From: Nocardioides marinus
GTDB lineage: Bacteria > Pseudomonadota > Alphaproteobacteria > Rhodobacterales > Rhodobacteraceae
NCBI GenBank assembly: GCA_019801415.1
Contig: JAHVJD010000001.1
Coordinates: 372,001 to 436,000 of the forward strand
Length of the DNA: 64,000 nucleotides
Reading direction: 5' to 3'
Below the pieces are notes generated by a model. It had not been told where the DNA came from and made no database searches. It worked only from the letters and a program-made list of their open reading frames with translations. Positions 26,419 through 50,347 of the stretch are shown here, piece after piece. The stretch's first letter is position 1; every line of letters starts with the position of its first letter. The position numbers and the translations under genes are program-made.

Positions 26419-28014
26419 TTACTTGAGGCGTCGCTCACGGGCCAGGCCAATGAAGACCGACACGCACATCAGCACCAGCACGATTGCGAAGGGGAAACCG
26501 GTCGCAATGGCGGCGGCCTGAAGCGCGCCGAGGCCGCCCCCCAGCAAAAGCACAACGGCGATGGCCCCTTCCAGAATGCACCAGAACACACGCTGGGCGG
26601 TCGGCGCATCGGTCTTGCCGCCGGCGGTGATGGTATCGATCACCAGCGACCCGGAGTCGGAGGAGGTCACGAAGAACACAACCACCAGGATGACACCGAC
26701 GAAAGACAGAATGCCGGTCAGCGGGAAGGTCTCGAACAGTTTGAACATCTTCAGCTCGAGTGCCGCATCCTGCAAGGCCTGGCCGGTTTCGCCCATGACC
26801 AGATCCAGTGCCGCACCGCCAAAGACGCTCATCCACAGGGCGCCGACAACTGTCGGGATCAGCAGAACGCAGGTGACGAACTCCCGCACCGTACGCCCGC
26901 GCGAGATACGCGCGATGAACATGCCAACGAAGGGCGACCAGGAGATCCACCATGCCCAGTAGAAGGTGGTCCAGCCCTGCATGAAGTTGGTGTCATCCCG
27001 GCCAACCCAGTTCGACAGTTCCGGCAGGTAGACCACGTAATCCACCAGATTGGTAAAGAAGCCGGAGAGGATCGCCACAGTCGGGCCAACGAGGAGAACC
27101 AGCACCAGCAGAACGGCTGCGAGAATCATGTTGGCTTCGGACAGACGCTTGACGCCCTTTTCCAGGCCGGCCACCACGGAGACCAAGGCAAACAGCGTGA
27201 TTGCCACGATCAGCGCCACCTTCATACCGTCGGTCAGCGGCACGCCGAACAGGTAGTTCAGACCGGCCAGCGCCTGCGACGCCCCCAATCCGAGCGAGGT
27301 TGCGAGGCCGAAAATGGTGGCGAACACCGCCAGCACATCGACGATGTGCCCCATCACGCCCCAGGTCGCCTCGCCGAACAGCGGGTAGAACACCGAACGC
27401 ATGGTCAGCGGCAGGCCACGGTTGAAGGAAAAGAAGGCAAGCGCCAGGGCAACGATCGCATAGACCGCCCAGGGGTGCAGGCCCCAGTGGAAAATAGTCG
27501 ATGCCATCGCCAGAGAGCGCGCCTGTTCCGGGTTCTCTGCGGCGGCGCCGAGCGGCGCCCAGTCGGTGCGCAGCCCATCCTCGCCAACGGCGGTGCCGCC
27601 GACGGAGGCGCCGAAATGCGAGATCGGCTCTGCGACGCCCCAAAACACCAGACCGATGCCCATGCCCGCAGCAAACAGCATCGCGAACCACCCGGCATAG
27701 GAGTAGTCCGGCCGTGCGTCATCGCCGCCGAGGCGAATCTTGCCGTAGGGGGACACCACCAGGAACAGCGAAAACAGCACAAAGATGTTCGTCGAGATCA
27801 TGAAGACCCAGTCGAACTTGCTGGTCAACGTCGGGCGCAGCCAGCCAAAGAATTCGGAGGCCTGCTCCTTGAACACCAGCGAAAAGAAGACGAATGCGAC
27901 GATGGTCACAGCCGAAATGGCAAACACCGGGTTATGTACATCCAGTCCCAGTACCTGGATATTGTCCTGCCCGACCTCATAGTCGGCATCGGACTCAGTA
28001 GATTCTGTCGTCAT
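26419..28014 (-). CDS. BCCT family transporter (betaine/choline/carnitine type)
   Basis: A 531-residue secondary transporter with about twelve membrane segments, taking up glycine betaine, choline or a related quaternary or sulfonium compound such as DMSP. The BCCT signature region with many Trp residues is present in the middle (TTFYWAWWISWSPFVGMFIARISRGRTVREF), and GMGIGLVFWGVAEP marks the substrate helix region. It sits alone between the stress cluster and the dmdA-acuI operon. DMSP uptake is a reasonable inference from that neighbour, but the sequence does not fix the substrate. Confidence 0.93.
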   Translation of the reverse strand: MTTESTESDADYEVGQDNIQVLGLDVHNPVFAISAVTIVAFVFFSLVFKEQASEFFGWLRPTLTSKFDWVFMISTNIFVLFSLFLVVSPYGKIRLGGDDARPDYSYAGWFAMLFAAGMGIGLVFWGVAEPISHFGASVGGTAVGEDGLRTDWAPLGAAAENPEQARSLAMASTIFHWGLHPWAVYAIVALALAFFSFNRGLPLTMRSVFYPLFGEATWGVMGHIVDVLAVFATIFGLATSLGLGASQALAGLNYLFGVPLTDGMKVALIVAITLFALVSVVAGLEKGVKRLSEANMILAAVLLVLVLLVGPTVAILSGFFTNLVDYVVYLPELSNWVGRDDTNFMQGWTTFYWAWWISWSPFVGMFIARISRGRTVREFVTCVLLIPTVVGALWMSVFGGAALDLVMGETGQALQDAALELKMFKLFETFPLTGILSFVGVILVVVFFVTSSDSGSLVIDTITAGGKTDAPTAQRVFWCILEGAIAVVLLLGGGLGALQAAAIATGFPFAIVLVLMCVSVFIGLARERRLK

Positions 28015-28400: not shown

Positions 28401-28433
28401 GAAAAGAGCCGGGGGCGGCCCAAAAGACCGCCC
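28401..28433 (-). terminator. Terminator of the dmdA-acuI operon
   Basis: A perfect stem GGGGGCGG with CCGCCCCC and a nine-base loop. On the minus strand it is followed by GGCTCTTTTCG, so the U stretch is short and slightly displaced. It lies 36 bases after the acuI stop. Confidence 0.75.
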
Positions 28434-28468
28434 CCTGTCAGATTTATGCAAATGCGGTGCGTGTCGCG

Positions 28469-29458
28469 TCAGGCGTTCACGTCGACCACGACGCGGCCCT
28501 TGACCTGCCCCTTGAGAATGCCCTTGCCGAGTTCCGGCAGGTCCGCGAGCGTCGCGGGCTGCACCATCGCCTCGAGCTTGTCCATCGGCAGGTCGCTGGC
28601 GATGCGTTGCCAGGCGCGCTGGCGGTTGGCGAAGGGCTGCATCACCGAGTCGATGCCCAAGAGGTTCACGCCGCGCAGGATGAAAGGCGTGACCAGCGCG
28701 CCGTCGATGGCGGCACCGCCTGCAAGGCCGATGGCTGCAACCGAGGTGCCGTATTTCATCTGCTTCAGCACCCGGCCCAGCATCGCGCCGCCCACGGCGT
28801 CGACACAGCCCGCCCAGCGCTCGCTTTCGAGCGGCTTGCGGGTCACCTCGGTCAGCTCGTCGCGGGCGACGATTTCCGATGCGCCGAGCGATTTCAGGTA
28901 GTCGGCCTGATCCGGGCGGCCGGTGACGGCGGCGACCTCGTAGCCGAGGTTGGCGAGGATCGCGGTGGCAACCGAGCCGACACCGCCGGCAGCGCCGGTG
29001 ACCAGTACCGGACCGTGGTCCTTTTCCATGCCCTGATCTTCCAGCGCCATCACGGCCAGCATCGCGGTCAGGCCCGCGGTGCCCACGGCCATCGCCTGGC
29101 GGGTATCCAGCCCCTCGGGCAGCGGCACCAGCCAGTCGGCCTTCACCCGCGCCTTCTGGGCGTAGCCGCCCCAATGCGCCTCGCCAACGCGCCAGCCGGT
29201 GAGGACCACCTTGTCGCCGGGCTTGTAGCGGTCATCCGAGGAGGCCTCCACGGTGCCGGCAAAGTCGATGCCCGGCACATGCGGGTACTTGCGCACCAGA
29301 CCGCCGCCCGGCCCGATGCAGAGCCCGTCCTTGTAGTTCACGGTGGAATAGTCCACCGCCACGGTGACGTCAGCCTCAGGCAGCATGTCCTCGGTGATGT
29401 CCTCGACCGCGGCAACGGGCTTTTCGTCGCCTTCCTTGCGTACGACCAGAGCTTTCAT
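28469..29458 (-). CDS. acuI: Acryloyl-CoA reductase
   Basis: Zinc-independent medium-chain dehydrogenase/reductase of the AcuI/YhdH family (329 residues) that reduces acryloyl-CoA to propionyl-CoA with NADPH. This detoxifies the acrylate formed during DMSP breakdown. The N-terminal GroES-like domain has YSTVNYKDGLCIGPGGGLVR and PHVPGIDFAGTV, and the Rossmann loop is VTGAAGGVGSVA. It follows dmdA by 57 bases with its own AAAGGAG site. The dmdA-acuI pairing is known from Ruegeria pomeroyi and other Roseobacters. Confidence 0.93.
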   Translation of the reverse strand: MKALVVRKEGDEKPVAAVEDITEDMLPEADVTVAVDYSTVNYKDGLCIGPGGGLVRKYPHVPGIDFAGTVEASSDDRYKPGDKVVLTGWRVGEAHWGGYAQKARVKADWLVPLPEGLDTRQAMAVGTAGLTAMLAVMALEDQGMEKDHGPVLVTGAAGGVGSVATAILANLGYEVAAVTGRPDQADYLKSLGASEIVARDELTEVTRKPLESERWAGCVDAVGGAMLGRVLKQMKYGTSVAAIGLAGGAAIDGALVTPFILRGVNLLGIDSVMQPFANRQRAWQRIASDLPMDKLEAMVQPATLADLPELGKGILKGQVKGRVVVDVNA

Positions 29459-29515
29459 CCTGTCTCCTTTCCGCGGGGCTTTCCCGCTGTTTCCGATTGG
29501 CGCCTGCGGGCGCCG

Positions 29516-30604
29516 TCAAATCCAGAAGCCGGGCTTCACCTCGGCCCGGCGCATGCCCAGAGGCGTCTCCACCTCCAGTACGGTGCCCGCATCCCAGTGC
29601 GAGCGTTCGACCATGGCGATCGACACGTTGGTGGCAAAGTCCGGCGACCAAGTGGCGGTGGTGACCTGGCCGACCTGCTTGCCATCCGCCATCAGCGGCC
29701 AGGGCGCGGTGATCGGCGGGATCTCCCCGCTGATCTCCACCGGGCGGATCTGCTGCTTCGGCTCGGACCGGGCCATCAGGCCCGCTTTGCCGATATAGTC
29801 GCGCGGCGAGTTCACGAATTTGCCCAGCCCGCATTCGAAGGGCGTGTTCTCGCGCGTCATGTCATTGCCGTAGCTGAGCAAGCCGCCCTCGACCCGCTCC
29901 ATGGTGGAGGGGCATCCTGCGCGCACCTCGAGGTCCGCGCCCGCCGCAAACAGCGCGTCCCACAGCGGCATGCCGTAGTGGCTGCCTTCGACATAAATCT
30001 CGAAGCCGCCCTGCCTGGAGTAGCCCGAGCGCGCCACCACGAAGCTGGTGTCCTGGAACCCCAGACGCTTGTAGCGGAAGAAGCGGATGCTCCGCGCCTC
30101 TTCGCCGAAGACGCGGGCCATTAGCTCATCGGCCTTCGGCCCTTGGACGGCCAGCGGGCTCACGTCCGGCTCCCACACCCGCACATCCAGCGCCAGCGCA
30201 TCGGCGATGCCAAGCACGTAATGCAGGTAGTCGCTGTCGGCGACCGAGATCCAGTAGTGGTCCTCGGCCAGCTTCACCAGCACGGGATCGTTGAGCATGC
30301 CGCCGTCGCGGTCGATGGCGGGCATGTAGTAGCACTGGTCCGCCGCCATGCCGTCGAGGTCGCGCGGGCTGATCAGGTCGAGCAGCTTGCGCGCGTCCCG
30401 CCCCTGCACCGCGACCTGGCGCTCGCAGGCGACGTCCCAGACCTGCACATGGGTCTTCAGGTGGCGGTAGTCCTCCTCCTGGCTGGCAAAGACCGACGGC
30501 AGGATCATCCGGTTGTAGACGGTGCAGACTTTCATGCCCGCCGCCTCGACGCCGGGGGAGAAGGGCGTGCGCCGGACGCGGCGCGAGGGGAAGATGCTGG
30601 CCAT
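29516..30604 (-). CDS. dmdA: DMSP demethylase
   Basis: Transfers one S-methyl of dimethylsulfoniopropionate to tetrahydrofolate, giving methylmercaptopropionate and 5-methyl-THF. The 362-residue GcvT-fold protein matches DmdA in length and sequence (SRRVRRTPFSPGVEAAGMKVCTVYN, QVWDVACERQVAVQGRDA, FRYKRLGFQDTSFVVARSGYSRQGGFEIY). General GcvT proteins lack this RTPFSPGVEAAG opening. It is followed by acuI and preceded by the DUF1326 gene with a 14-base gap. Codons are strongly biased to third-position G/C. Confidence 0.95.
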   Translation of the reverse strand: MASIFPSRRVRRTPFSPGVEAAGMKVCTVYNRMILPSVFASQEEDYRHLKTHVQVWDVACERQVAVQGRDARKLLDLISPRDLDGMAADQCYYMPAIDRDGGMLNDPVLVKLAEDHYWISVADSDYLHYVLGIADALALDVRVWEPDVSPLAVQGPKADELMARVFGEEARSIRFFRYKRLGFQDTSFVVARSGYSRQGGFEIYVEGSHYGMPLWDALFAAGADLEVRAGCPSTMERVEGGLLSYGNDMTRENTPFECGLGKFVNSPRDYIGKAGLMARSEPKQQIRPVEISGEIPPITAPWPLMADGKQVGQVTTATWSPDFATNVSIAMVERSHWDAGTVLEVETPLGMRRAEVKPGFWI

Positions 30605-30618
30605 GCCCTGCCCTCCGC

Positions 30619-31251
30619 CTACTTGGGCCCGTGCCAGTCGATCTGGCAGATCTCGGCCGAGCGGCCGTCGAAATCCCAGACCCGGCCAAAGGCGCGCACG
30701 CGGCCCTTGGTGGCCTTGGCCACGGTGATGTCGGGGCCCATCCAGTATTCGGTGTTGGTGACGACGATGTCCTTGCCGTCCTTGCCCTCAACCGGCACCA
30801 CCGATCCCTGAATCTTCTTGCCCACCATCAGGCGGCGCTCCTTGCCTTCGGTCTCAAAAACCACCGGGGCGCGTTCGGCGCCAAGGAACTCGCTCACCAG
30901 CATGGAGAACAGCCCGGTGGTGCCGCGGGCAGCCCCCGAGAAGATATTGACCAGCCCGTTATAGGCAGCTTCCGAGGCGCGCTCGTCGATGAAGGCGGCG
31001 GCCTTCCAGTTGCCGCGGCCCATGTTGCCCGGGATCTCGAGAAACAGGCCGACGTTCAGGCCCGAGAGGTCCTCTTCGCCGTAGCTGCCTTCGTCGATGC
31101 GCACGCCCGCCCAGGCCTGGCAGTGGCCTTCGGTCGGCGGGTGCTGGCCCAGCGATACCACGCAGGGGCAGAAGACGGTGCAGTTGCAGTTGAGGATCAG
31201 CTCCCCCTTGATGGTCCAGGGCACGGTGCCCACTGCTGCGTCGAGTGCCAT
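30619..31251 (-). CDS. DUF1326 protein with Cys-rich metal-binding-like motif
   Basis: A 210-residue soluble protein of the DUF1326 family. A dense Cys/His cluster lies near the N-terminus: C22, C24, C28 and C30 in NCNCTVFCPC, then H37, H43 and C44. This looks like a metal or redox site, which I infer from the residues and not from experiment. It lies 18 bases after the DUF2182 gene and 14 bases before dmdA, with a GGAGGAAA ribosome site. It is therefore predicted to be co-transcribed with DMSP demethylation. Function is unknown. Confidence 0.85.
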   Translation of the reverse strand: MALDAAVGTVPWTIKGELILNCNCTVFCPCVVSLGQHPPTEGHCQAWAGVRIDEGSYGEEDLSGLNVGLFLEIPGNMGRGNWKAAAFIDERASEAAYNGLVNIFSGAARGTTGLFSMLVSEFLGAERAPVVFETEGKERRLMVGKKIQGSVVPVEGKDGKDIVVTNTEYWMGPDITVAKATKGRVRAFGRVWDFDGRSAEICQIDWHGPK

Positions 31252-31269
31252 TTCTTTCCTCCCTAATGT

Positions 31270-32040
31270 TCAGACAATTCCTGCGGCCAGCGCCAACGCC
31301 ATTACCACCAGACCCGCACCCAGCGGTTTGGTGACGTAGCGGCCCAGCTCCGGCAGCTTTTCCAAAATCATGATCACCGTCGCGAGCCCCATGAAGGCAA
31401 GGTTCATGGTCCCGCCGACAAAAGCCAGCAGCATCAGCGCCCAGCAGCAGCCCAGGCACACCAGCCCCAGTCGCACCCCGTTGCGCAACGGGCCTTCTGC
31501 CCAGTGCTGCATGAAAAACACCAGCGGACGACGGCACTTGCTGAGACAGGCTTCCTTCATCGGCGAGAACTGGTAGCCCCCCGCGATCAACAGCAGCGCT
31601 GCTGACAAGTAACGGGAATTGCTGTCGCCGAAGGCGGTAATCAACTCCGCCCGGAACAGCAGCAGCTGCAACAGCCCCGCCAGAGCGGAAAAGCCGCCCC
31701 ACACCGCCAGATAGCCGCCGACCAACCGGGTGAAGTCGGTATCGGGCGCCGTGTGGGACAAATCTTCGTAGGTGGCAAAGGCCGGCAAGGCCGTCGGTGC
31801 CATCATCGCGGCCGACATCAGCGCCCACATCATCGCCATCTTCGCGAAACCCGCCGCATCCGGAGTCAGGGTGCAGAAATCGCGCCAGAAATCCGGCCCG
31901 TAAGCCGCACTCGCCTGCCGCAGCTCAGCCGGAACCGACATCGCGTAGAGAACGACCCAAGCCCCCAAGATCAGCCCGAAGAGGGCCAGCCAATGCCAGC
32001 CTGCCATGGTCCTGATGCGTTGTGCCAGAATGGCTTTCAT
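31270..32040 (-). CDS. DUF2182 predicted metal-binding integral membrane protein
   Basis: A 256-residue membrane protein with about six to seven hydrophobic helices. Conserved features of DUF2182 are the MMWALMSAAMMAPTALP helix and two Cys groups: CLSKC (C165, C169) and CLGCC (C195, C198, C199). DUF2182 and DUF1326 commonly occur side by side and are thought to handle a metal. I chose ATG 32040 (GGAG five bases upstream) over GTG 32073. It is the first gene of the operon, with the tandem operator 42-71 bases before the start. Confidence 0.85.
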   Translation of the reverse strand: MKAILAQRIRTMAGWHWLALFGLILGAWVVLYAMSVPAELRQASAAYGPDFWRDFCTLTPDAAGFAKMAMMWALMSAAMMAPTALPAFATYEDLSHTAPDTDFTRLVGGYLAVWGGFSALAGLLQLLLFRAELITAFGDSNSRYLSAALLLIAGGYQFSPMKEACLSKCRRPLVFFMQHWAEGPLRNGVRLGLVCLGCCWALMLLAFVGGTMNLAFMGLATVIMILEKLPELGRYVTKPLGAGLVVMALALAAGIV

Positions 32041-32081
32041 GGCGCGCTCCGGGTAAGAGGGTCTGCGACTCACGTCTTGAG

Positions 32082-32111
32082 TTTTAAATGTCAGACTTTT
32101 AAATGTCAGAC
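32082..32111. promoter_or_regulatory. Tandem 15-base operator between the DMSP operon and its GntR regulator
   Basis: The 15-mer TTTTAAATGTCAGAC occurs twice in a row with no mismatch (32082-32096 and 32097-32111). Each copy contains the palindrome GTCAGAC. The second is flanked as TGTCAGACA, which fits the GTnnnAC operators of FadR-type GntR proteins. The spacing of 15 bases puts both copies on nearly the same helix face. It lies between divergent starts at 32040 and 32165. Confidence 0.7.
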
Positions 32112-32164
32112 AAATGATTTCTGGCCGGGCCTCTCCCGGCGTAACGCAGCGTCAGGGCAGTCAC

Positions 32165-32899
32165 ATGCGGATCGACCCAAACAGTTCCGCCGATCTATCG
32201 GTACAGATCGCTCAGGCGATCAAGGATGCCATCATATCGGGCGACTTGAACGTGGATGAGCGCCTGCCTTCCGAGGCAGAGCTGTCCGAGCATTTCCAAG
32301 TCTCGCGGCCAACCGTGCGCGAGGCCCTGAAACGCCTCGCGGCGCAGTCACTGATCCGCACCCAGCGGGGTGCCACGGGCGGCGCTTTTGTAAAGCGACT
32401 GAGCTTTGAAGACGCCTATGCCCAGCAGATCACCACCTCGACCCTGCTGCTGAGCATGAACGCGGTGAGCTTTGACACAGCCTGCGAGGCGCGCTACGCG
32501 CTCGAACGCGCTTGCGCGCCACTGTCGGCCGCTCGCTGCAGTGCCGATCAACTGGCGACGATGCGGGCGGAGATCTTTCGCCAGCAGCAGCCGGGTTTGA
32601 CCGATGAGGCGTTCTGCGCGTCCGACGTTGCGTTTCACCGCGCGCTTGTGGATGGCGCCGGCAACCCGGTGCTCTCCTACCAGCTGGCCGGTGCGGTGGA
32701 AGCCATGCAACCGCTCATGAACATGATCACCTTTAGCGCCCGCGACCGCGCCACGATCACCGCCCTACATGGGCGTATCGCCGATGCGATCGAGGCGGGA
32801 GATGGCGCGGCCGCGGTGGCGGGGCTTGAGGATCTTGAGGGCGAAACCCGCAAGCTCGCCGCGGATGTCTTTGCCGCACGTGCCGCCCGCAGCGCTTGA
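32165..32899 (+). CDS. GntR-family (FadR subfamily) transcriptional regulator
   Basis: A 244-residue regulator. The winged-helix domain (residues 10-78) contains LPSEAELSEHFQVSRPTVREALKRLAAQ and the wing RTQRGATGGAF. The C-terminal helical FCD ligand domain carries conserved His and Asp positions (SDVAFHRALVDGAGNPVL). It is divergent from DUF2182-DUF1326-dmdA-acuI, and the tandem operator lies between them, so it probably controls this operon and itself. The likely effector is DMSP or a breakdown product such as acrylate, by inference. ATG 32165 is chosen. Confidence 0.9.
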   Translation: MRIDPNSSADLSVQIAQAIKDAIISGDLNVDERLPSEAELSEHFQVSRPTVREALKRLAAQSLIRTQRGATGGAFVKRLSFEDAYAQQITTSTLLLSMNAVSFDTACEARYALERACAPLSAARCSADQLATMRAEIFRQQQPGLTDEAFCASDVAFHRALVDGAGNPVLSYQLAGAVEAMQPLMNMITFSARDRATITALHGRIADAIEAGDGAAAVAGLEDLEGETRKLAADVFAARAARSA

Positions 32900-48574: not shown

Positions 48575-50347
48575 TCATTCCGCCGCCTCGATGCCGTCCA
48601 CCAGGATCGGCAATTGCATCTCAAAAACCGCGCCGCCGTTCTGGCCGTTGCGGGCGGTCAGCCGCCCCCCGAGGTCGTTGACGATCCCCGAAGAGATGGC
48701 AAGTCCCAAACCAACCCCATCGCCGGGCTGCTTGGTGGTGTAAAAAGGCTCAAACAGGTTGTCGAAGTCCTTGATCCCCATCCCGTTGTCACGCACCGAC
48801 AAGGTCGCGGTCTCGCCCGCGGCCAACAGGATCTCCACCTCCGGGTCGTCCACAGACTTGGTGGCGTCCAGGGCGTTTCGCAAGAGGTTGACCATCACCT
48901 GCTCCAGCCGCATCCGGTCCCCCATCACCATAACAGGTTCTTCCGGAAGAATGCGGGTGATCTTGACATGGCGCTGACGCAGCTGCGGCTCCATCATCGA
49001 CAGGCTGGACGCCAGCGCATCCCCAAGATTTACAGGGCTGAACGTGTCTCCGCCCTTGCGCGCATAAGACTTCAGCTGACGGGTGATCGCGCCCATACGC
49101 TCAATCAAATCATCAATGCGCCCGAAGGAGGCCAGCGCTTCGTCGGGGCGGTTGCGGCTCAACAGCAAACGGGCGCCGGCCAGATAGGTTTTCATCGCGG
49201 CAAGTGGCTGATTCAACTCGTGACTGACGGCGGCCGACATCTCGCCCAGGGCGGCCAATTTCGAGCTCTGAGCAAGGCTCTGTTCGGCCACCGCAAGGGT
49301 CTTTTGCATGCGTTCACGCTCGGCGATTTCCCGCTGCAGGCGGGTGTTCAATACGCGAAGCTCTGCCGACTCGCGCTGGAACAGGGCCATCCGCAGCGCC
49401 GTCTTGCGGCTCAGGGCATAGAACGCCAGGGCCAGCAGAATGGCGAATCCCATGATTTCCAGCGCCAGCACCGCGTTCACCCGCTCCCGCACTGAAGAGT
49501 ATGTGGTGAAGGACGCCATCCGCCATCCCTGGAACGGCACGCGCGTCTCCAGGCGCATCACCGCTTCGCCCTGCAGATAGGCGTCGGGCGGCAGCGCGGT
49601 CCAATCGGTGGTTGCCCGGATCGCCCTCTGGATCGCGCCTTCCGGGGTTTGCAGCGTCAGCGCCTCCGCCTCCTTGAGCCCGCGCCAGCGCGCTTCGGTG
49701 GCAAGAATGATCGAGCCGGTGCTGTCGCTGACCAGAACCGCATCGGAGATACCTGCCCAAGCGCGCTCGAACTTTTGCAGATCGACCTCGACGACGATGG
49801 CCCCCAGCACCCCGGTGGCGTCGATCATGCGGCGCGAATAGGTAAAACGATAGCCGCCGACTTCTCGCGGAATAACGGAGAACACGGTCGATTTTGCCCG
49901 CACCGCATCGACGAAATAGGCAGCATTGCGGTGATTTTCGCCCAGCCGGTTGCGGTCGGTGGCTGCCACCGTGCGACCGTCACTGGCCAGCAACATGATC
50001 GAGGCTGCGCCGATTTCATCGACGAAGGAAATCAACCGCTGCGTCGACAGCGAAAAATCATTGGATTGCAATGCCGATATCAGCGTCTGATCCCGCGCCA
50101 ACAGCTGCGGCACGATGGCATGCTGGCGCAGCTCGCTCAGCAAGTTGCCGGAATAGAGCGCCAACCGCAGTTCGGCGCGGTTGCGGGTGCTTTCGGTAAA
50201 GCGGTGTGTCAGCGCGCGGTTGGTCGTCCAGACGGTAACCGCCGCCGCGGCCATGAACACCAGCAAAGCAAGCCGCGCGCGCCACGAAATCGTGCGCGAT
50301 CGGGCCTTGGACCTGGTCTGTTTCAAATCATTGCGCGGGGCGGACAT
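48575..50347 (-). CDS. dctB: DctB-like sensor histidine kinase
   Basis: A 590-residue inner-membrane sensor. Membrane helix 1 lies at about 24-42 and helix 2 at about 291-312. Between them is a large periplasmic double-PDC/Cache sensor of the DctB type (SLSTQRLISFVDEIGAASIMLLASDGRTVAATDRNRLGENHRN). The phospho-His is H376 in AVSHELNQPLAAMKTYLAGAR, and the HATPase boxes follow (N-box LLRNALDAT, G1 DNGMGI, G2 GVGLGLAIS). It is 31 bases upstream of dctD. No TRAP or DctA transporter gene is in the window. Confidence 0.92.
   Translation of the reverse strand: MSAPRNDLKQTRSKARSRTISWRARLALLVFMAAAAVTVWTTNRALTHRFTESTRNRAELRLALYSGNLLSELRQHAIVPQLLARDQTLISALQSNDFSLSTQRLISFVDEIGAASIMLLASDGRTVAATDRNRLGENHRNAAYFVDAVRAKSTVFSVIPREVGGYRFTYSRRMIDATGVLGAIVVEVDLQKFERAWAGISDAVLVSDSTGSIILATEARWRGLKEAEALTLQTPEGAIQRAIRATTDWTALPPDAYLQGEAVMRLETRVPFQGWRMASFTTYSSVRERVNAVLALEIMGFAILLALAFYALSRKTALRMALFQRESAELRVLNTRLQREIAERERMQKTLAVAEQSLAQSSKLAALGEMSAAVSHELNQPLAAMKTYLAGARLLLSRNRPDEALASFGRIDDLIERMGAITRQLKSYARKGGDTFSPVNLGDALASSLSMMEPQLRQRHVKITRILPEEPVMVMGDRMRLEQVMVNLLRNALDATKSVDDPEVEILLAAGETATLSVRDNGMGIKDFDNLFEPFYTTKQPGDGVGLGLAISSGIVNDLGGRLTARNGQNGGAVFEMQLPILVDGIEAAE

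Follow-up and report, generated by a model that had tools for sequence, protein, structure and literature searches.

A possible copper-handling gene pair at the head of a predicted DMSP-demethylation operon in Rhodobacteraceae

Demethylation of dimethylsulfoniopropionate (DMSP) by Rhodobacteraceae is a major marine sulfur route, and much surface sea water is poor in copper. Why two genes for cysteine-rich proteins, one of them from a family named after a copper chaperone, should head a set of DMSP genes is the question raised by a locus on contig JAHVJD010000001.1 (assembly GCA_019801415.1, named Nocardioides marinus and placed by GTDB in the Rhodobacteraceae); the whole stretch analysed, termed the window, spans 64,000 nucleotides, positions 372,001 to 436,000 of the forward strand. 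On its minus strand PpoB2 (formerly DUF2182), DUF1326, dmdA and acuI follow one another with intergenic gaps of 18, 14 and 57 bases, an order and spacing proposed by an earlier reading of the bare letters (the sequence-only reading) and confirmed here by the coordinates. The explanation tentatively preferred, at somewhat below an even chance, is that these four genes form one DMSP-demethylation operon under GntR control, the two leading genes of which would encode a copper-handling module. The layout, an operator-like site, a terminator-like stem and conservation over many Rhodobacteraceae genera are evident in the sequences compared; the function of the pair is what we infer.

31270..32040, minus strand: PpoB2 family (DUF2182, COG5486) membrane protein, operon gene 1, 256 amino acids, PF09948
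30619..31251, minus strand: DUF1326 protein of type a, 210 amino acids, PF07040
29516..30604, minus strand: dmdA, DMSP demethylase, NF009133
28469..29458, minus strand: acuI, acryloyl-CoA reductase, TIGR02823

PpoB2, which starts with an ATG in a reading frame that extends open to a GTG at 32073, matches PF09948 at 200.9 bits (curated cut-off 28.7), DUF1326 matches PF07040 at 175.8 bits (curated cut-off 25), and a Pfam search of both proteins returned these two families and no others. The dmdA product scores 572.3 bits with NF009133, above the equivalog cut-off of 410. That of acuI passes the wider TIGR02823 (450.5 bits, cut-off 297) and lies slightly below the NF051456 AcuI equivalog cut-off (426.1 against 440 bits); its identity as AcuI fits because the gene is placed after dmdA. 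Both leading proteins carry the dense cysteine motifs in which the sequence-only reading had seen metal handling. PpoB2 has cysteines C56, C165, C169, C195, C198 and C199 and many conserved methionines, and Cys and Met residues are invariant in a 72-row alignment, the alignments of 70 and 72 rows having been drawn from the window and 80 named loci, the best 80 of 566 relatives, some of which are short contigs; the PpoB2 of locus L208 was dropped for an in-frame stop, and the contig of L255 is without PpoB2. Several hydrophobic segments, located by a crude script, and a helical AlphaFold2 model (pLDDT 89.2) mark PpoB2 as an integral membrane protein. Pfam names the former DUF2182 'PpoB2, copper chaperone' after a Marinomonas mediterranea protein that supplies the tyrosinase of this species with copper and, among COG5486 members, was the first to have a role (PMC2855505). 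The PpoB1–PpoB2 operon of Marinomonas resembles the present one in having a PpoB2-family membrane protein encoded in an operon with the enzyme served, but its client is a tyrosinase (PMC2855505), whereas the window operon has a DUF1326 partner and DMSP genes.

DUF1326 has six cysteines (C22, C24, C28, C30, C44 and C202), and the residues C22, C24, C28, P29, C30 and C44 of its CxCxxxCPC...C cluster are invariant among 28 chosen sequences of three types. Inspection by eye showed no signal peptide, and the crude script no hydrophobic span; a sequence search of the PDB gave no relative, and a structural model of medium confidence bears a tentative likeness to acetoacetate decarboxylase. The CxC and CPC clusters, taken with the conserved Met of the partner, would fit Cu(I), and DUF1326 may bind Cu(I) by its Cys cluster.

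Whether the pair belongs to the dmdA transcript can be approached from the regulatory signals around the operon.

32165..32899, plus strand: divergent GntR-family (FCD) regulator, PF00392 and PF07729
32089..32112, no strand assigned: predicted tandem operator TGTCTGACA TTTAAA AGTCTGACA, whole site TGTCTGACATTTAAAAGTCTGACA, in the 124-bp gap between the GntR and PpoB2 genes
28411..28435, minus strand: predicted intrinsic terminator after acuI, an 11-pair stem with a T-rich tail

The GntR reading frame is open from 32114, its conserved start being the ATG at 32165. Searched through the 3.9-Mb genome, the tandem pattern TGTCNGACAN{4,34}GTCNGACA has a single match, at 32089-32112; a reversed control pattern likewise matched once, a point against the operon reading, so the uniqueness of the match means little and the weight falls on its place and conservation. 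The lone TGTCNGACA occurs at two window positions, 6103 and 32104. In the 65 of the 80 named loci where the gap between GntR and PpoB2 was measurable, exact TGTCNGACA was present in 61, twice or more in 17, and with at most one mismatch in all 65. These gaps make up 6,017 of the 802,972 bases of the named loci and hold 79 of their 93 exact sites, a figure that is partly circular because the motif was derived from the same gaps. A separate sample of 88 genus-survey loci, with genes labelled by ORF clustering and with shared ancestry and possible species overlap with the named set, has an exact site upstream of PpoB2 in 42 of 51 loci with dmdA and GntR, 0 of 14 with dmdA and without GntR, 2 of 6 with GntR only, and 1 of 17 with neither. 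Inside the span from DUF1326 to dmdA an operator-like site is found in just 3 of 74 loci. This placement, upstream of PpoB2 and rarely within the span to dmdA, leads to the prediction that the pair forms the end of the dmdA operon nearest the promoter. No terminator-like stem was detected within the four genes, the region as a whole holding seven terminator-like sites against 2.6 in shuffles, and a simple scan for a sigma-70-type promoter found none. Co-transcription of the four genes, which the sequence-only reading had deduced from the short gaps, is thus likely, the gaps being joined by a terminator-like stem solely after acuI and by the operator-like site upstream.

The pair is not confined to the window strain, as a survey of dmdA neighbourhoods makes plain. 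Among 238 genera of Rhodobacteraceae, each represented by one genome, dmdA was found above cut-off in 101, DUF1326 in 119, PpoB2 in 124 and the methanethiol oxidase family SBP56 in 80. In 76 of the 101 genera with dmdA, equivalent to 76 of the 83 that have both genes, DUF1326 precedes dmdA on its strand at a distance of no more than 1.71 kb. Shared ancestry accounts for part of this linkage, and a Fisher test for co-occurrence (5e-18), which ignores that ancestry, is not taken as evidence of function. PpoB2 stands immediately upstream of DUF1326 in 74 of the linked loci and acuI near dmdA in 67, with a divergent GntR gene in 61, a DinB-family gene in 39, dmdB in 8 and SBP56 in 1. The named loci have a similar content: PpoB2 in 79, acuI in 68, GntR in 65, dmdA in 56, DinB in 33, dmdB in 9 and SBP56 in 6. 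Ruegeria pomeroyi DSS-3 likewise has dmdA followed directly by acuI, induced there by DMSP and acrylate; the accessible part of that account does not mention a PpoB2-DUF1326 pair (PMC3338564), and the DSS-3 genome was not searched for one.

The DinB-family gene (PF05163; for example L185:5432-5947, minus strand) stands between or near DUF1326 and dmdA, frequently overlaps DUF1326 by four bases and accounts for many DUF1326-dmdA gaps of 545-570 bases; the window operon has no room for it. Its weak match to a mycothiol-S-transferase model, below that model's cut-off, lends something to an improbable alternative, namely that the DUF1326 Cys cluster is a thiol or sulfane-sulfur site for redox or sulfur transfer instead of a metal site, with PpoB2 moving sulfur or electrons at the membrane. 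Rhodobacteraceae SBP56 proteins with GGDC[ST] turn methanethiol into sulfane sulfur (PMC10936201), as this alternative would have it, but it is opposed by the published copper role of PpoB2 (PMC2855505), by clusters and partner Met that appear suited to Cu(I), and by a Pfam result for both proteins that holds just DUF1326 and PpoB2.

A broader challenge comes from the chromosomal setting. Fifty-six of the 76 linked loci keep at least one of SspB, FumC, ChrA, AT5 and photolyase nearby, as would be expected if the pair were a general housekeeping module for copper or another metal in an old conserved chromosome stretch, beside which dmdA and its regulator were inserted or lost with no functional tie to DMSP. 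This is rather unlikely in our estimate. The operator-like site upstream of the pair and seldom between pair and dmdA speaks against it, as do the small or overlapping gaps and the company that the pair keeps elsewhere: 20 of the 76 linked loci have none of SspB, FumC, ChrA, AT5 and phr (photolyase) nearby, so the unit persists in other settings also, some loci have the pair with dmdB-dmdA and no acuI, and two plasmids carry the pair together with dmdA. A DmdA match at E 1e-60 was obtained in 14 plasmid records; five of these are 59.9-62.5% identical (Marinovum, Antarctobacter and three Phaeobacter inhibens), the other nine are 36-39% identical and not annotated as DmdA, and of the three plasmids viewed, those of Marinovum and Antarctobacter have the pair with the gene, whereas the one from P. 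inhibens does not have it near dmdA. On plasmid pMaD9 of Marinovum algicola DG 898 (CP010864.1) the same pair heads dmdB-dmdA-acuI, in a gene run that differs from the window in also holding dmdB and SBP56, and its depositors annotated the pair as 'involved in DMSP breakdown'. The sequence-only reading knew of no description of the link, which in view of that deposited label is not wholly undescribed. No paper on the pair beside dmdA was found in the open literature searched, where DUF1326 and DUF2182 had no mention and COG5486, COG5588, PF09948, PF07040 and 'metal-binding integral membrane protein' led only to a Marinomonas review.

Several further observations weigh against the preferred explanation or limit it. 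Many genomes that have no dmdA keep the pair ahead of acuI, the downstream block frequently being the same, which also favours the housekeeping explanation and qualifies the earlier guess of a metal function tied to DMSP: the copper part agrees with the published transfer by PpoB2 (PMC2855505), while the persistence of the pair beside acuI without dmdA tells against the tie. In a DUF1326 tree of 107 rows (105 of 106 kept, one truncated type-a row dropped, two added), the state 'dmdA beside pair' needs at least 21 changes, and for the dmdA label a minimum of 8 follows from the starred branches; the tree was built quickly, and 47 of its 104 inner branches have values under 80. A second DUF1326 type has the two genes in reversed order at unrelated genomic places. 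Of 116 plasmid records matching DUF1326, ten were viewed; in the eight regions from other contexts the cassette has no recurring partner, six of them annotating both DUF1326 and DUF2182 and no DMSP gene, again as a housekeeping module would. The plasmid of P. inhibens DSM 17395 carries dmdA with dmdD and a dmdB-like gene, with no pair in the 13 kb viewed. DUF1326 is absent from 18 of the 101 dmdA genera of the family and, in a class-level sample of 289 genomes in which 26 have dmdA above cut-off, from 19 of the 22 such genomes outside Rhodobacteraceae; three of the 22 have DUF1326, directly upstream of dmdA in just one. That one, the 1.3-Mb, 64% complete genome G428 (L325) from another family, counts in favour of the linkage: it has PpoB2, DUF1326 and dmdA consecutively, adjoining a divergent DmdA. 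Four other small dmdA genomes of this sample (1.2-1.6 Mb) are without DUF1326, which makes the pair accessory and not part of the demethylation chemistry. DMSP induction of the window operon is itself an assumption, being taken from R. pomeroyi, where a lower DMSP dose gave no induction (PMC3338564); another account reports hardly any dmdA expression when DMSP was supplied in minimal medium (PMC9873259).

Under the preferred explanation of a copper-handling module, cytosolic DUF1326 would hold Cu(I) in its CxCxxxCPC...C cluster, and its membrane partner PpoB2 would take up or hand on copper by way of Cys and Met. Demethylation leads to methanethiol, a strong Cu(I) ligand, in whose presence copper enzymes may need re-supply or protection, which would be why the module is made together with dmdA. 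SBP56 methanethiol oxidase, where present, might be one client; in favour stand SBP56 genes next to or within the cluster at some loci, the breakdown of methanethiol by SBP56 of the GGDC[ST] class (PMC10936201) and the copper requirement of the Hyphomicrobium oxidase (PMC5739008). A narrower version, in which a cytosolic Cu(I) module produced alongside DmdA would protect copper enzymes from demethylation-derived methanethiol in particular, or keep them supplied in the face of it, and would serve cytosolic SBP56 where present, copper supply then limiting the demethylation branch of DMSP turnover in the sea, seems distinctly unlikely. A copper-chaperone-type pair heading DMSP genes in many bacteria of a largely marine family suggests that copper handling is tied to the making of toxic methanethiol. 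If the pair is made whenever dmdA is on, copper status could sway the fate of DMSP between biomass sulfur and volatile gas, and DUF1326, a family without a known role, gains a concrete setting.

The search for a copper client bears on this module with mixed results, its negatives adding to the points just weighed. Tyrosinase, the published partner of PpoB2, was rejected as a client in the window strain, PF00264 having no match in its genome; the family occurs in 5 of the 238 genera. No SBP56 (PF05694, E 0.001) was found in the window genome either, and the distribution of SBP56 does not follow that of the pair: it is present in 45 of the 76 linked dmdA genera and in 15 of the 25 remaining ones with dmdA. 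For the window strain, a strict link with the oxidation of methanethiol finds no support. The earlier idea of metal supply to a methanethiol enzyme, which in its strong form makes the pair a dedicated metallochaperone for SBP56, is very improbable, although SBP56 lies beside or inside the pair cluster in 6 of the 80 named loci, in G043 and on pMaD9. In Marinovum L277 and on pMaD9, whose species is shared with one of the six named loci, pair, dmdB, dmdA, acuI and SBP56 run in one direction, as do pair, dmdA, acuI and SBP56 in Pacificoceanicola onchidii L250; in three Ruegeria and G043 a divergent SBP56 gene adjoins the GntR gene. Set against this, SBP56 is missing from 31 of the 76 linked genera as well as from the window genome, on which grounds it was rejected as an obligatory client, and it falls within the pair-dmdA locus (about 6 kb to each side) in only 1 of the 76. 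The oxidases of R. lacuscaerulensis and others were active when made in E. coli (PMC10936201), so their activity does not strictly depend on a dedicated chaperone. The R. pomeroyi type that resembles the copper-tested Hyphomicrobium enzyme (TCQSPYM; PMC10936201) sits elsewhere, at other loci in the four genera viewed (G023, G031, G075 and G219, with a two-CxxCH gene downstream) and, in R. pomeroyi, next to SCO1 and mauG (PMC5739008).

That mtoX-SCO1-mauG operon resembles the window locus in setting copper chaperone genes beside methanethiol metabolism (PMC5739008). Its chaperone belongs to the SCO1 family and serves a predicted periplasmic oxidase, whereas the window pair is PpoB2/DUF1326 and, unlike SCO1, sits with demethylation genes and mostly no adjacent oxidase; with no SBP56 gene in its genome, the window strain falls outside this type. 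SCO1 was considered as a linked rival chaperone of SBP56 and rejected: a SCO1 gene is present in 60 of 63 genomes searched, yet all 73 SBP56 places compared are free of one to a distance of 10 kb, a finding that speaks for the pair as SBP56 chaperone. These places are near-full-length, high-scoring matches, excluding partial ones, the low-scoring G023, G031, G075 and G219, and those in G033, G168, G172 and G223, genomes that had no SCO1 match or lay outside the SCO1 search.

The SBP56 genes met in these comparisons offer some observations of their own. GGDC[ST] is present in 47 of 48 examined. At the GntR-pair-DinB-dmdA-acuI cluster of R. lacuscaerulensis ITI-1157, the SBP56 gene at L207:3379-4776 (minus strand) encodes 466 amino acids with seven Cys, including 76, 140 and 456, a numbering that matches RlMTO, the active oxidase of the same species in which Cys 76, 140 and 456 were mutated (PMC10936201); this contrasts with a 2020 statement that the species is without mtoX yet has two genes of the family (PMC7157515). 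One GGDC-type SBP56 group is followed by a membrane-like protein of about 218 amino acids without a Pfam match (L202:14973-15629, plus strand, and 36 of 48 clustered SBP56 loci). A 92-bit PpoB2-family match (G136:C5:47682-48209, minus strand; L299) closely follows an SBP56 gene at 48877-50220, and in a genome without a DUF1326 match dmdA and SBP56 matches stand 72 bases apart on one strand (G066:C1:189548-192088; L293). DmdA-like proteins below cut-off are encoded a few kilobases from SBP56 genes at G036:C40, G032:C71, G123:C1 and G208:C2, some of these SBP56 genes being followed by ferredoxin and CoA-binding genes.

Past the predicted terminator of the window operon lies one further gene of possible relevance to DMSP.

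26419..28014, minus strand: BCCT transporter, possible DMSP or betaine uptake, PF02028 at 612.3 bits

Its position makes it probably a separate transcript, and a BCCT transporter gene is found downstream of acuI in a number of relatives too.

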